A stretch of 64,000 nucleotides of DNA, from positions 491,205 through 555,204 of the forward strand of contig CP098402.1 of the NCBI GenBank assembly GCA_025916675.1, given 5' to 3'. This DNA comes from Phycisphaera sp. Lineage in GTDB: Bacteria > Planctomycetota > Phycisphaerae > Phycisphaerales > UBA1924. Shown here piece by piece: positions 20,319 to 43,655 of this stretch (the first letter of the stretch is position 1; every line of letters starts with the position of its first letter). The notes below the pieces were generated by a model. It ran no database searches, was not told the DNA's origin, and saw nothing but the letters and a program-made list of their open reading frames with translations. Position numbers and translations under genes: made by a program.

Positions 20319-20403
20319 TTTCCTCGCCAGGCCGTTCGAACTCTCCGGGACGGCGGGCGCCGAGAAGACTCCCGCCGGTGCTGACAGAGTTCGAGGGGGT
20401 GCC

Positions 20404-20568
20404 GAGATGATTTCAGCGGGCACTGAGATCGTTTCAGCAGGCACCGAGTTGATTTCAGCGGCCACCGACATCGTTTCAGCGGGCACTGAGATCAATTCAG
20501 CAGGCACTGACATTGTTTCAGGGGGCACTGAGATCATTTCAGCGGGCACCGACATTGTTTCCGCGGCG
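20404..20568. repeat. 21-bp tandem array A (about 8 units)
   Basis: Seven full 21-bp units (starts 20404, 20425, 20446, 20467, 20488, 20509, 20530) and a partial eighth follow one another without spacers. The consensus core is GA(G/C)AT(C/G)(G/A)TTTCAGCGGGCAC. Units differ at three to six positions. Because 21 is a multiple of three, the array is open in frames on both strands, but no frame has a supported start or family. It lies between the hypothetical gene and mntR. Confidence 0.92.
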
Positions 20569-20672
20569 CAATTCCTGCGCTCCTGTCGGGTCTGATGGGC
20601 CTCCAGGGGCGTTCTGCCGAGCGTCCCCCGAACAGGCCCCCGAAGGGCCCGAGCCCGGGCCTACGTTCCGCC

Positions 20673-21116
20673 GTGCCCACACCCAAGCCCTCCAAGCCGA
20701 ACCCCACCCCCCCGCGCCGCGGCCACCAGCGCACCCGGCTCGACCACGCCAGCGAGACCGCCGAGGACTACGTCGAGGCCATCGCCGAGGTCGTCGAGCG
20801 GGTGGGCGCCTGCCGCGTGAAGGACCTGGCCGAGCGGTTCGGCGTCAGCCACGTCACGGTCGTGCGCACCGTCGGCCGGCTGGAAGAGGGCGGGCTGGTG
20901 ACGACCGAGCCCTACAAGCCCATCGAATTGACCGCCAAGGGCAAGAGACTGGCCAAGGCCTGCCGCGAGCGGCACGAGGTGGTCTATCGCTTCTTGATCG
21001 CCATCGGCGTGCCCGAAAAGGTCGCCGCGGTCGATAGCGAGGGGCTCGAGCACCACGTCAGCAAGGCGACGCTGGAACGCTTCCGGGCCATCGCCGAGGG
21101 CCGAGAGAGCCCCTGA
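20673..21116 (+). CDS. mntR: MntR/DtxR-family metal-dependent transcriptional repressor
   Basis: A 147-residue regulator resembling E. coli MntR. After a basic, proline-rich N-terminus it has a winged helix-turn-helix (VKDLAERFGVSHVTVVRTVGRL) and a dimerisation/metal domain. Likely Mn ligands are the Asp and Glu of AEDYVEAI, the His of RERHEVV, and Glu/Glu/His in DSEGLEHHV. It would repress the downstream uptake genes when manganese is plentiful; palindromic sites upstream of the porin and binding-protein genes fit. GTG 20673 is chosen; an ATG at 20595 would add 26 low-complexity residues just after the tandem array. Confidence 0.87.
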   Translation: MPTPKPSKPNPTPPRRGHQRTRLDHASETAEDYVEAIAEVVERVGACRVKDLAERFGVSHVTVVRTVGRLEEGGLVTTEPYKPIELTAKGKRLAKACRERHEVVYRFLIAIGVPEKVAAVDSEGLEHHVSKATLERFRAIAEGRESP

Positions 21117-39477: not shown

Positions 39478-41181
39478 TTACCAGATAAATCGCAGCCGCC
39501 CGAATCCGGGGATCGGCACCGCGCCACGCCGCTCGACCGCCGGGAAGTACACGAAGAAGGCACGACCCAGCATCAACTCGCTCGGCACGATGCCCGCCGG
39601 GGCCCCCAGCGGTGACACCCAGGGGCTTGGCTCGCCGAGCAAGCGGCTGTCCTGGCTGCTGGCCGAGTTGTCGCCGCACACGAAGAACTGGCCCTGGTCC
39701 AGGATGGCCAGATCGAGGCTCGGGTGGCTGCCGCGGACCGGGAGCTGGCTGTCCCCGCGGGTGCTCTGGTAGTACAGGTCGCGGTCGAGGGCCAGGCGGT
39801 GGAGCTTCACCGGGCCCACGAGGGCGATGGCCGGCTTGGCCGAGCGATAGGTGTTCGGCGGCGGCACGATGGGGGCCCGGGCGTCCAGCGGCTGGCCGGT
39901 AGCCAGCTCCAAGCGTTCGATGGGGCCCCAGTCGTACGTCGCGTGGGCGACCTTCTTGCCGCCCACGAACAGCCACAGGGCCTGGTCGGCGTGCCAGAAC
40001 TCGACGTCGGTGACCTCGCCAGCGGGCGGCTGGTCGATGCCGGCCTCGGCCATCGTGGTCCAGCGATCCGTGTCGTCGGTCTCGATGGGCCGCGTCTCGA
40101 TGCGGGCTGTGCCGCCCGAGATGATGGCTCGGAAGGCGTGGGATCGGGTGTCGATGCGGACCGCCAGCCGTTCGAGGCTCTGGCCCACCGGCTCGACGCC
40201 CATGCGCACGCGGACGTCGCCCACGCCGAACGTGGCGGGCTGGTATGGCGTCAGCCGCTCGCCGCTTCGACGGTACCGCTCGTTGTAGGGGTAGTAGTCG
40301 ACGATGGGCCACGCCTGGGTGTCCCATTCCAGCCGGGTGAGGCCCGGCAGGGTGTGCTCGGGGGTCGTGCCGTCGAGGTTCTCCCAGCCGTTGAACGCCT
40401 GGCCCGAGGTCGAGACGGCTTTCCAGGGCGGGCTGTACCAGTTGTACCCGTCGCGGATGGGGTCGACCGGGGCCCGGGCCGTGTCGTGCACGGGCATCCA
40501 CACGGCCCGCTGGGCCTCCTCGGGCTTGCGGGCGATGGCCCAGCCGTCCATCGCCCAGGTGCCGCCGGGCTGGTCGAGGTCGGCTTCGGATGGGTTGGCA
40601 TCACCTTCTGGGAGCGGCCGGGTGAAGACGTCGCCATCCACGACGGCCCACTGCTCGCCGGGCAGGCCAGTCAGCCGCTTGATGTAGTTCACGGTGGGAT
40701 CGGTCGGGTTCTTGAACACCACCACGTCGAAGCGCTCGGGCTCGAAGATGATCGGCAGGTACTTGAGCACCAGGATGCGGTCGCCCGCGCGGAGCCGCTC
40801 GACCTCGGTGTCGATCTGGTACGCCGGGCTGCGCGCCGCGGCGACGCCGCTCTCGATCAGGGCCGGAGGGTTGCTGGCGGTCATCGGGTCGTGCACGGTG
40901 TAGCGGCTCTCGGCCCGCGTGCCATCGGTCCAGGGGCCCACCTGCCAGCGGGCCCCGGTCTGGTCGCTGACGACCTCGACGTGCTGGCCGAGGAGGGTGG
41001 GGGCCATCGAGCCGGTGGGGATGACGAAGGCCTCGATGACGAAGGCCCGGAACACGAACGCCATCGCGAAGGCGATGATGATGGAGCTGAAGGTCTCGCG
41101 GATGGAGAAGCGGCTTGAGTCCCGCCCCTGGGCGGGAGATTGGGTAGAGCCGGATGCGGGTTTGGCGGGGGTGTCGGCCAT
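39478..41181 (-). CDS. lepB: Signal peptidase I with large insertion
   Basis: A 567-residue inner-membrane peptidase that removes Sec signal peptides. One membrane helix (SIIIAFAMAFVFRAFVIEAF) leads into box B with nucleophile Ser58 (IPTGSMAPTL). The general base is Lys168 in NYIKRLTGLPGE, and box E is FVCGDNSASSQDSR near the end. Between Lys168 and box E lie about 300 extra residues, partly beta-rich, absent from ordinary SPase I (about 320 residues in E. coli). ATG 41181 was chosen since upstream codons lie in the repeat island. Confidence 0.92.
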   Translation of the reverse strand: MADTPAKPASGSTQSPAQGRDSSRFSIRETFSSIIIAFAMAFVFRAFVIEAFVIPTGSMAPTLLGQHVEVVSDQTGARWQVGPWTDGTRAESRYTVHDPMTASNPPALIESGVAAARSPAYQIDTEVERLRAGDRILVLKYLPIIFEPERFDVVVFKNPTDPTVNYIKRLTGLPGEQWAVVDGDVFTRPLPEGDANPSEADLDQPGGTWAMDGWAIARKPEEAQRAVWMPVHDTARAPVDPIRDGYNWYSPPWKAVSTSGQAFNGWENLDGTTPEHTLPGLTRLEWDTQAWPIVDYYPYNERYRRSGERLTPYQPATFGVGDVRVRMGVEPVGQSLERLAVRIDTRSHAFRAIISGGTARIETRPIETDDTDRWTTMAEAGIDQPPAGEVTDVEFWHADQALWLFVGGKKVAHATYDWGPIERLELATGQPLDARAPIVPPPNTYRSAKPAIALVGPVKLHRLALDRDLYYQSTRGDSQLPVRGSHPSLDLAILDQGQFFVCGDNSASSQDSRLLGEPSPWVSPLGAPAGIVPSELMLGRAFFVYFPAVERRGAVPIPGFGRLRFIW

Positions 41182-41266: not shown

Positions 41267-41617
41267 GGCGGAGCCGAAGACGGCTGCGCCAGCGCTCGCC
41301 CAACGGGGGTGTTCTTGGGCGGTCGCTGCGCTCCCTTGCGGGCTACCGCCCGGGCCGCAGAAGCGGCCGCGCCGGGGCATGCGCCCTGCGCCCGAAGACG
41401 GGCTGGTGCGGATGCCCCGTCGCCCGGATGCCTTGTGTGTGATGGCGCGTTGGGCTCTTCACGCCGGAGCATCCGCCGAGCGAGTCTTCGAGCGAAAGCG
41501 CATGCGGGAGGCGCGGCCGCTTCTGCGGCCCGGCCGTCAGGCCGCAAGCGAACGAAGTGAGCGCCCTAGAGCAACCCAACAGAACGCAGCTCTGGCGCAG
41601 CCGTCTTCGGCTCCGCC
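41267..41617. repeat. REP-bounded repeat element, left copy (351 bp)
   Basis: The element is bounded by exact 25-bp inverted repeats (41267-41291 and 41593-41617). Each end itself folds: GGCG-g-AGCCG-aaga-CGGCT-g-CGCC. The interior is similar to the reverse complement of 42703-43052, for example TGTTCTTGGGCGGTCGCTGC and GCATCCGCCGAGCGAGTCTT. Frames through it encode only repetitive Ala/Arg/Glu-rich peptides. It has no transposase, so it looks like a non-autonomous (MITE-like) or REP-composite element. Confidence 0.82.
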
Positions 41618-41622
41618 AGAGC

Positions 41623-41718
41623 GTCGAGCGTGCAAGAACGGCCGAAAGCACGGCGTCGAGCGTACAAGAACGCTCGATAGCACGCCGTCGGACTTCCAAG
41701 AACCCCCGAGCACACCAC
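41623..41718. repeat. Three degenerate 32-bp tandem units
   Basis: Units start at 41623, 41655 and 41687 and share GTCG, a central CAAGAAC and a GCAC near the end. Units 1 and 2 are close; unit 3 is diverged. They directly follow the left repeat element. Confidence 0.6.
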
Positions 41719-41753
41719 AAAAAAGCGAGGGCCCCCGGCTCCACCGGACACCC
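41719..41753 (-). terminator. Rho-independent terminator of the small gene in the repeat island
   Basis: On the minus strand, two 10-base arms (with one mismatch and two G-T pairs) around loop TGGAG are followed by TCGC and T6. It starts 28 bp after the stop of the 231-residue gene. Confidence 0.65.
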
Positions 41754-41781
41754 CCGCCAGAACGCATCAATGCAAGGTGCC

Positions 41782-42477
41782 CTACGCCGCGTCGCTGGCC
41801 GTCCCTTGCGAGATCGCCAGTTGGTTCCCCTGCGTGCCCAGGCTGATGACCACGGTCGACGTCCAGCCGCTCACGCGGGTGTCGGTACCGGCCTTGCCCA
41901 CGCCCGCCGAGGGCCGCTTGGCCCGCACGCGGTAGCCGGCCTGGGGCGTGCCGGCGGCCACGCCGGTGTCCGACACCATGCGCGTGGCCACCGTGTCGAC
42001 GGCGACCCAGGTCACGCCGCTGTCGAGCGTGCGCTGGACCTCGTAGTAGGTCCCTAGCGCCAGGCTGCCCTCCCAGCGCACCTCGATGGCCCCCTGATTG
42101 CCCAGTTGCAGCGTCACATCGGTGGGCACCTGCGGGTCGGGGCTGGGCGTGGGGCTCGCGGGCGGCTCCAGGCCGGCGGCGGCGTACACGCCCGGGTCGC
42201 TCTCGGCCCGGGCGTAGGCCCGGATGGTCGCGATGAGGTTGGACGCGAAGCCGCGCATCTCGGTGATGGCCTCGTCGCGGGTGGTCAACGCGTTCTCGGC
42301 GGCCAGCAAGGCGGCCTGCTGGCTGGAATACGCATCACGTGCGGCCTGGGTAAGAACACTCGCGGCCGCGACTTGTTCAACAGACAAACCCACGGCGGTG
42401 GGGTCGGCTTCCCACAGGGGGATGCGCTCTTCGAGGTACTCGATGGGGGCGACGACGGGCGATTGCGGGATAGCCAT
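41782..42477 (-). CDS. Hypothetical protein with fibronectin-III-like C-terminus
   Basis: A 231-residue protein without signal peptide. The N-terminal half is helical (EYLEERIPLWEADPTAVG, then AARDAYSSQQAALLAAENAL). After a Pro-rich hinge (SPTPSPDPQVP) the C-terminal half is beta-rich and resembles a fibronectin type III fold (IEVRWEGSLALGTYYEVQR, VDTVATRMVSDTG). Similar short helix-plus-FN3 proteins occur in planctomycetes with unknown role. GGAG lies seven bases before ATG 42477. It is the only convincing gene between two inverted repeat elements and has its own terminator. Confidence 0.75.
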   Translation of the reverse strand: MAIPQSPVVAPIEYLEERIPLWEADPTAVGLSVEQVAAASVLTQAARDAYSSQQAALLAAENALTTRDEAITEMRGFASNLIATIRAYARAESDPGVYAAAGLEPPASPTPSPDPQVPTDVTLQLGNQGAIEVRWEGSLALGTYYEVQRTLDSGVTWVAVDTVATRMVSDTGVAAGTPQAGYRVRAKRPSAGVGKAGTDTRVSGWTSTVVISLGTQGNQLAISQGTASDAA

Positions 42478-42702
42478 TGGCGGCTCCGTTTCTTCTGTGG
42501 GTCCGCCCGCGTGGCCGCGTCCATGCGGCCGGGGTTCGTCCATGGACGGGCGCACCGATCTTGCTCTGGAAACGAATGTCGTCGCGGTGGCGGGGCGACT
42601 CCAGTCCGATTTGGCGGTCTTTGGAATTTTTTCTCCTGGGGCTTTCGATGGCCGTGGGCGCTCGGGTTGTGTCGATCGAGCGTTCTTGGCCTTCCGCCGC
42701 TC
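42478..42702. other. Spacer upstream of the island gene
   Basis: Presumed promoter region of the 231-residue gene (minus strand). It is AT-richer in places (a TTTTTTCTCC tract near 42628). No gene is seen. Confidence 0.4.
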
Positions 42703-43052
42703 GGCGGAGCCGAAGACGGCTGCGCCAGCGCTCGCGTCTGTTTGTTTGTTTGGAACGCTCGCGTTGCTCGCTTGCGGCCTAAGGGCCGGGCGGCAGAAGC
42801 GGCCGCGCCTCTCGCATGCGCTTTCGCTCGAAGACTCGCTCGGCGGATGCTTCGGCGTCAAGAGCCAATCGCGTGATCACGCCCAAGGCACTTTGCGACG
42901 GGACATCCGCACCAGCCGGTCTTCCGGCGCAGGGCGCATGTCCCGGCGCGGCGGCCCCCGGCCGCCCGGGCGGTAGCCCGCAAGGGAGCGCAGCGACCGC
43001 CCAAGAACAACCAGGTTGGCGCAGCGGAGGCGCAGCCGTCTTCGGCTCCGCC
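42703..43052. repeat. REP-bounded repeat element, right copy, inverted (350 bp)
   Basis: Bounded by the same palindromic ends (42703-42727 and 43029-43052, 24 of 25 bases). Its reverse complement follows the left copy along almost the whole length with scattered substitutions and a few small indels; I judge identity to be high by eye but have not computed it. Together the two copies form an inverted pair 1.09 kb apart around the 231-residue gene. Confidence 0.82.
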
Positions 43053-43185
43053 AGAGCGTCGAACGTTCGAGCACGGTCGTCAGCACAACCCGAACACCAG
43101 GAACGCCCGGGCGCCGCGGTCTTCGGCTCCGCCAGAGCGTCGAACGTTCGAGCACGGTCGTCAGCACAACCCGAACACCAGGAAC
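43038..43185. repeat. 67-bp direct repeat, two identical copies
   Basis: Bases 43038-43104 and 43119-43185 are identical and start at the same point inside a REP-like palindrome. The period is 81 bp. A further palindrome end lies at 43191-43215, so the block looks like local amplification of the right element's border. Confidence 0.88.
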
Positions 43186-43215
43186 CGCTCTGGCGCAGCC
43201 GTCTTCGGCTCCGCC
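43112..43215. repeat. Two further REP-like palindromes
   Basis: Partial copy at 43112-43133 (GCCGCGGTCTTCGGCTCCGCC) and a full 25-bp copy at 43191-43215. With the four element ends this gives six palindromes within 2 kb. None was noticed elsewhere in the window. Confidence 0.75.
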
Positions 43216-43347
43216 AGAGCGTCGACCGTGCAAGAAACCCCCAAGAGCACAACACGAACACCCGAAATCACCCGCCCACGCGAGGGCCCCCGCCAGAGCG
43301 GCCCGCGGCGCTCCCGCACCACGACTTGAACCCAATTCCATCAGGAA

Positions 43348-43599
43348 CTGCCCGCGAACCAAGGGCCTCTGGACGCGGCCAAGAGGCCTATAGACGCGAT
43401 CTTTGGGCCTATGGACGCGGTCTTTGGGCCTATTGACGCGATCCTTGGGCCTATGGATGTGATCTTTGGGCCTATTGACGCGGTCTTTGGGCCAACGGAT
43501 GCGATCCTTGGGCCTCCGGACGCCGCCAATAGGCCTCTGGACGCGAACTTTGGGCCTCTGGCCGCGGTCTTTGGGCCGTTGGGCGCGGCCGAACGGCCG
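43348..43599. repeat. 21-bp tandem array B (12 units)
   Basis: Twelve consecutive 21-bp units (43348 to 43599) with core GACGCG(A/G)TCTTTGGGCCT(A/C)T; the middle five are most alike and the ends degenerate. The sequence is unrelated to array A but has the same period and also keeps frames open on both strands. No start codon, ribosome site or domain supports translation. It lies between the REP island and a membrane-protein gene. Confidence 0.92.
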
Positions 43600-43655
43600 A
43601 TGATGGCGGGGCAAGAGACCCAGGGCCACGATCGGCGCCGCTTCTACACTCGCCC

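Follow-up and report, generated by a model that had tools for sequence, protein, structure and literature searches.

The two elements that flank a small gene in the window (the whole 64,000-nucleotide stretch of DNA analyzed here) are two members of a dispersed repeat family that stand around one gene by chance, and they are not a transposon. We think it probable that they belong to a family of non-coding, intergenic palindromic repeats, seen so far in one genus and comparable to a very large BIME, whose hairpins act mainly as DNA that drives homogenization and exchange. The elements lie mostly behind genes, and strongly prefer the 3' ends of one FN3-like gene family.

The element and its copies

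The initial annotation had described two related elements of about 350 bp, lying in opposite orientation around a small gene, and this description is borne out (Table 1). Copies 1 and 2 are complementary at 90% over 41267-41358 and 42961-43052, at 92% over 41363-41423 and 42895-42955, and at 88% over 41429-41563 and 42756-42890. The 25-bp sequence said to bound each element does fold as the hairpin described, but homology continues past it: longer pairwise matches between copies commonly span ~410-490 bp, which is the size of an element with its outer flanks, against ~350 bp between the end hairpins. A 22-nt end sequence is present in the window without mismatch at 41269, 41594(-), 42705, 43029(-) and 43192(-), and with two mismatches at 43110(-), where 100 shuffles lead us to expect none.

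Table 1. Coordinates of the elements and associated features (window positions, except for the element places, which are given as positions in the genome G000)
Feature	Position	Strand	Remark
Element copy 1	41267-41617	+	B arm left, A arm right; between FN3-like gene and signal-peptidase gene
Element copy 2	42703-43052	-	A arm left, B arm right; inverted relative to copy 1
End hairpin, copy 1 left	41267-41290	+	Genome 532471-532494; IUPAC pattern match
End hairpin, copy 1 right	41594-41617	-	IUPAC pattern match
End hairpin, copy 2 left	42703-42726	+	IUPAC pattern match
End hairpin, copy 2 right	43029-43052	-	IUPAC pattern match
Extra end hairpin	43110-43133	-	1 mismatch to IUPAC pattern
Extra end hairpin	43192-43215	-	IUPAC pattern match
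81-bp tandem repeat (end hairpin and outer flank), 2.5 copies	43029-43229		Beside copy 2
32-bp tandem repeat of outer flank, 2.8 copies	41621-41709		Beside copy 1
Enclosed gene, 231 aa, helical N-terminal and FN3-like C-terminal part	41782-42477	-	
Degenerate 21-bp tandem array	43354-43602		Upstream of enclosed FN3-like gene, beyond copy 2
Signal peptidase gene (Pfam Peptidase_S26)	39478-41181	-	Adjoins copy 1; start codon picked by eye
Element places 1-8	133225, 354365, 532471, 533907, 776350, 1038502, 1234074, 1399825		G000 coordinates
Element places 9-16	1461330, 1476576, 1557780, 1816873, 1842685, 2085124, 2157883, 2190436		G000 coordinates
Element places 17-22	2484419, 2600232, 3525676, 3602679, 3611104, 3617393		G000 coordinates; the last spans the contig start

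The window pair is not special. Copy 1 was used as the query of a DNA search (E<=0.001) of the window's own genome, G000, a single contig of 3,617,591 bp. It gave at least 56 matches, with 40 of 60 candidates scored, so that weak copies may be missing; both strands were counted, because most copies match in the reverse sense too. These matches group into at least 22 places of the 3.62-Mb genome that hold a full or partial element, two of which (2085124 and 3602679) extend scarcely beyond the end itself. The IUPAC pattern of the end hairpin has 37 matches in G000 at no more than one mismatch (32 of them exact), all within the 22 listed places, and two more with three mismatches, against none for the reversed pattern. 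Counting the copies and aligning their ends, as had been proposed initially, thus yields numerous copies with constant ends within this genome, where neither a lack of other copies nor inconstant ends was found. The contig itself begins and ends inside one element copy (1-169 and 3617393-3617591), perhaps an assembly break at a strong hairpin.

Both end hairpins are retained in 12 copies, and each of these 12 combines one A arm with one B arm in inverted order, so that the element is a heterodimer with a polarity. Each arm is a chain of at least four small hairpins. The core is typically CGCATGCGC..TCGAAGACTCG..GGCGGATGCTTCGG in A arms, and GGGACATGCGCCCTGCGCC..GAAGAC..GGCTGGTGCGGATGCCCCG, or a short form, in B arms. 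Six of the 37 hairpin arms (534396, 534314, 2158292, 2085129, 3611193 and 3602733), which are fragments or tandem extras, were excluded before typing. By eye, five of the 37 end hairpins have a broken pair, and one of these, 2600232, is among the four arms omitted from the covariation count given below.

Relatives of the element are present in at least four of the six congeners (G023, G083, G137 and G142), that is, in at least five of the seven genus members once G000 is included. In a sample of 150 genomes of the family, with four candidates scored per genome, a depth at which weak relatives may be missed, at least five have a match, all in the window's genus, and none was found outside it. 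Phage and plasmid sequences gave no match, nor did viral contigs searched with one exact pattern, and a phage or plasmid origin was set aside.

FN3-like genes, 21-bp arrays and the ndk-csrA site

The enclosed gene belongs to a set of about 41 FN3-like paralogues in G000, and such genes number from 2 to 56 per genome in the genus; 40 were analyzed here, the weak hit 419602 being left out and 1556834 being partial. FN3 domains of known structure are matched by the C-terminal half (3mpc, E 5.5e-9). No convincing family for these proteins was found in Pfam (best E 5e-4, in 1 of 14 members) or in NCBIfam, where PQLLE is hit by 5 of 14 members with a best E of 1.2e-4 and the window protein scores 14 bits for a cut-off of 80. 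When the structure of the protein alone is predicted, the mean pLDDT is 51, and only the N-terminal helices (~residues 10-80) are confident. In PHROGs, the FN3 half of 3 of 14 members weakly matches a family of phage major tail proteins (best E 1.4e-5). All 40 proteins end in Ala or Gly, 30 of them in -AA and eight in -AG, which looks like a C-terminal degradation tag.

The element is located behind at least one ORF at 18 of the 21 places scanned (ORF filter), whereas copy 2 of the window lies on the 5' side of both its neighbors and two other places are unclear. Nine of the 22 listed places are directly 3' of an FN3-family gene, for a chance expectation of ~0.05 by length (binomial 6e-19 by length, or 6e-12 assuming 3000 genes); this calculation treats the places as independent, which the nine are not, because several of the element-bearing genes are closely related. 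In eight of the nine cases, the outer hairpin begins 115-164 bp past the stop codon, and a truncated arm is found 136 bp past that of FN3 gene 353566. On a tree of 39 FN3 proteins, the nine bearing genes need at least five changes, also when well supported branches alone are used, for a shuffled mean of 8.2, and 2 of 500 shuffles are as low as five. The association between element and FN3 gene is therefore clustered, but was gained or lost repeatedly. That a palindrome of some kind follows every FN3 gene was considered and rejected, since the inverted-repeat score stands out in only 10 of 40 cases, one of which (2033591) is an unrelated palindrome. Other strong palindromes were noticed behind some FN3 genes of genomes in which no element was found with four candidates scored per genome, at L081 in G109 (134-239 bp into the 3' region) and at L183 in G285.

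Upstream of the FN3 genes, at ~50-1,170 bp, lie degenerate non-coding arrays with a 21-bp period, equal to two helical turns, and a motif that varies by locus. They precede 22 of the 40 genes in G000, 15 of 24 loci in other genus members and 14 of 19 loci outside the genus, the loci beyond G000 being those supplied by the search. Downstream of FN3 genes the corresponding counts are 2 of 40, 1 of 21 and 3 of 17, and 13 of 300 control stretches hold such an array. A coding function is unsupported: one array out of 49 shows a codon-phase bias at p<0.05, and any given frame of the six is open in 63-76% of arrays. A second array of the window (20402-20566), which has no FN3 gene, precedes an iron-dependent-repressor-like gene (20595-21116). 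In its repeat and right edge it is similar to the array in front of the FN3 gene at genome position 1816054. A similar motif occurs at L194:3955, before an ORF that by eye resembles MreB.

Element, FN3 gene and array come together between ndk and csrA. The ndk block (identified by Pfam NDK) and the csrA block (Pfam support in G000, tblastn support in G023, G142 and G127) are spaced by ~58 bp in G023, 107 bp in G142 and 144 bp in G127, whereas an insert of 3.2 kb separates them in G000 and one of 2.9 kb in G083. Both inserts run in the order element, FN3 gene, 21-bp array and divergent gene. The divergent gene has two terminal DGDG..FDFL motifs; in G000 it has FG-GAP repeats, and in G083 it matches nothing in Pfam. 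The 1.5 kb that follow ndk in G137 and G109 yielded neither csrA nor an FN3 gene nor an element. The FN3 genes of the two inserts are not orthologues of each other: the best G000 match of the G083 gene (79% over 963 bp) is an FN3 gene lying 15 kb from this site, and similarity jumps between two G000 FN3 loci at the element, which in G083 is a single arm starting shortly past the stop codon. A 15-kb deletion between two direct elements was considered as the source of the G083 arrangement, and dropped because the gene by the second element lies ~12.5 kb from the FN3 gene in G083, in unchanged orientation. Behind the gene at 1474817-1476463, the orthologous FN3 gene is present in G142 without an element, and in five species neither of the two occurs within 1.5 kb. 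A gene end of the type DGDG..FDFL.FQN is found within 7 kb upstream of the FN3 genes of G000 (L264-L303) on the divergent strand in 10 of 40 cases and on the other strand in five, the control giving six in 395 kb.

The module is thus present or absent at one and the same site, and its movement as one unit is a candidate explanation. The element would be the 3' part of a mobile module composed of the palindrome, the FN3-like gene, the 21-bp array and sometimes a divergent secreted-type gene, with the palindrome as the recombination or integration site. The two ndk-csrA inserts, with the same order and different cargo, point to such a module, as do the short gap of the three other species, the range of FN3 gene numbers in the genus, and the arrays upstream of FN3 loci outside it. 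However, 31 of the 40 FN3 genes of G000 have no element directly behind them, and 13 of the 22 listed element places do not directly follow an FN3 gene. Outside the genus, FN3 genes with arrays occur in genomes that yielded no element with four candidates scored per genome. Moreover, among 26 FN3 loci of sister species, eight share the neighborhood of their best G000 match, two are in another G000 neighborhood, and the rest have no long flank match. As an account of the element, this scenario appears rather unlikely. Tentatively, and with a little more confidence, the palindrome might be the 3' recombination end of an undescribed mobile module of this bacterial class, of fixed order and differing cargo, such modules replacing one another at one site.

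Probable exchange between copies and conserved pairing

Two pairs of copies differ in patches. A 256-bp core is identical in copies 1476576 and 2600232, which are 84% alike on either side of it, and ~260 bp (core, one arm and flank) are shared with one difference by copies 1234074 and 3525676, which have diverged on the other side. Between species, the end hairpins have followed their own paths: at the loci inspected, G142, G023, G083 and G137 have end-hairpin stems of their own, on the same hairpin plan as G000, and the exact G000 pattern is matched 32 times in G000, twice in G142 and not at all in the other five genus genomes. The constancy of ends between copies holds, then, within G000 and not across species, where the letters differ though the plan is kept. 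Taken together, the sharing of cores inside diverged arms and the species-specific end hairpins indicate concerted evolution, and we infer gene conversion or template switching behind it from the patchiness of two pairs of copies.

The question is then which base pairing is conserved. Covariation was counted on 27 of the 31 usable arms, over 24 base pairs in four small hairpins. Paired cells amount to 98.6%, versus 90.9% in shuffles, and 38 cells show double-sided changes, versus 10.0 in shuffles and 0-9 in controls with slid partners, which are 30-51% paired; the shuffles leave the relatedness of the arms in place. Six of the 24 pairs have changed on both sides. The signal lies in the double-changed cells, the share of paired cells, the covariation score and the slid controls, while two of five measures are weak, the double-changed pairs and the pair types being not clearly above shuffles (96/500 and 232/500 as high). 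As to the long palindrome, the outer arms of one element are 0.773 identical, versus 0.789 (sd 0.007) for randomly paired A and B arms, with a one-sided p=0.0094 (20,000 permutations, the direction being picked after arm typing). Since the stems covary and an element's own arms are less alike than random ones, it is the small hairpins that are kept, and not a long perfect palindrome. The whole element does fold as a single long hairpin (z -12.6 for the + strand as DNA, -15.4 for the - strand as RNA), but this pairing is not the conserved feature. Selection acts against long perfect palindromes, and the lower likeness of arms within one element fits this.

If the hairpins act as DNA, as we think probable, their single-stranded or cruciform state would favor recombination between copies, together with gene conversion and template switching. 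These processes would homogenize the element within a species, swap cores between diverged arms and allow adjoining gene modules to be exchanged at the 3' ends of genes, where this does little damage. Long palindromes, if perfect, would be eliminated, leaving imperfect A/B heterodimers as survivors. Any effect on transcription, such as a barrier to read-through, would be secondary.

Compensatory changes in stems can also be read as selection for RNA structure. The element would then be part of a read-through transcript, its hairpins stabilizing 3' ends or insulating neighboring, often convergent, genes. The strong fold, the covarying stems and the position behind genes agree with this, although covariation does not tell RNA from DNA. 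According to PMC8794818, template switching can produce perfect stems and compensatory changes by mutation, with no need for selection on RNA; the abstract of that paper deals with RNA genes, unlike the dispersed repeat described here. Neighbors are clearly convergent at 7 of the 21 places scanned (1461330 and 2190436 turn convergent once the true FN3 strand replaces a misreading by the ORF filter, and 2157883 is doubtful), so that clear convergence is lacking at half of them or more. Furthermore, the arm that faces the FN3 gene is variable (A in three and B in five of eight full arms), a terminator-like hairpin with a T-run, seen by eye, precedes the element in most of the nine FN3 cases, and a search of Rfam matched no known RNA family to the element. 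We consider a structured RNA or transcription barrier distinctly improbable as the main role of the element, and retain a role of the hairpins as DNA.

Possible mobilization and relation to known repeats

A third scenario is that of a REP or MITE family moved in trans by a transposase of the RAYT/IS200 or DDE type encoded elsewhere. Dispersed copies with constant inverted ends are what such a process would leave, and Y1_Tnp, the RAYT/IS200-type domain, is present in two of the seven genus genomes (two genes in G000, one in G137), such that past mobilization by an enzyme of this kind may have occurred. However, no Y1_Tnp was found in G023, G083 and G142, all of which bear elements, the three Y1_Tnp genes have no significant match to the element within 1.5 kb, and no other listed copy is more than 88% identical to copy 1. 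No partner transposon sharing the element ends was seen, the transposase search being for Y1_Tnp only. At the copy 2 site in G137 the spacer is too diverged to align, and intergenic flanks between species are likewise too diverged for an empty site or a target duplication to be read. The remote RAYT/IS200-type transposase suggested initially is thus unsupported, and we judge mobilization in trans very unlikely.

The inverted pair as a composite unit carrying the enclosed gene can be set aside, as eight other FN3 genes have a 3' copy and no close 5' copy, three (1232863, 1556834 and 1844508) have an element on the 5' side only, ~570, 620 and 1,470 bp away, and for the G137 orthologue of the enclosed gene the 3' copy alone was found. 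A different composite idea has gained support, namely that one element, an FN3-like gene and the upstream array form the ndk-csrA insert of two species. Among the three readings offered in the initial annotation, a REP/BIME-like palindromic family therefore fits best, while the link to a Y1_Tnp transposase and the composite of two copies find no support.

In a literature search of titles and abstract openings, the elements, the 21-bp array and the FN3-like gene family were not found described. The closest relatives in kind are REPs and BIMEs, which are palindromic, extragenic, present in many copies, mostly downstream of genes and arranged as inverted dimers (PMC3733652), single REPs measuring 20-40 bp and carrying at one end an unpaired tag, GTAG or CGTC. 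According to the same source, inverted REP dimers prefer heterodimers in most families, in agreement with the A/B arms found here, and CGTC repeats appear without a dedicated transposase (PMC3733652). The element is likewise extragenic, palindromic, present in many copies in G000, mostly downstream of genes and heterodimeric, and like the CGTC repeats it has no linked transposase, Y1_Tnp having been searched. In contrast to REPs, its unit is ~350-490 bp, with at least four different hairpins per arm and an A/B polarity; its end hairpin carries no GTAG, GACG/CGTC adjoins 13 of 15 B ends but 5 of 16 A ends (counted by eye), and, unlike GTAG-type REPs, it flanks no RAYT-type gene. We do not file it as a REP, because its size and tag differ and the link to RAYT is lacking, and in our judgement it is a new, BIME-like kind of palindromic intergenic repeat.

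Two other kinds of element invite comparison. With MITEs it shares its short size, non-coding content, dispersal, inverted ends and lack of an internal transposase; unlike MITEs, its internal hairpins covary and its cores are exchanged in patches. A partner transposon with the same ends was not seen in the search for Y1_Tnp, and no target duplication could be read from the diverged flanks. An integron gene cassette consists of a gene and a hairpin-forming attC site at its 3' side. The FN3 gene followed by a hairpin-forming element recalls this arrangement, but FN3 genes are dispersed and not collected in a single cassette array.

The comparison of arms within and between elements separates the forces that act on small hairpins from those that act on the long palindrome. 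The family also links palindromic repeats of the dispersed type to the gain and loss of genes at one defined site, for which relatives without the insert are available, and it draws attention to an FN3-like gene family that is unnamed, very multi-copy and accompanied by a 21-bp DNA array. The wider module that includes this array is the more original lead, at modest probability; if modules do move as units, they would constitute a testable accessory-gene system.
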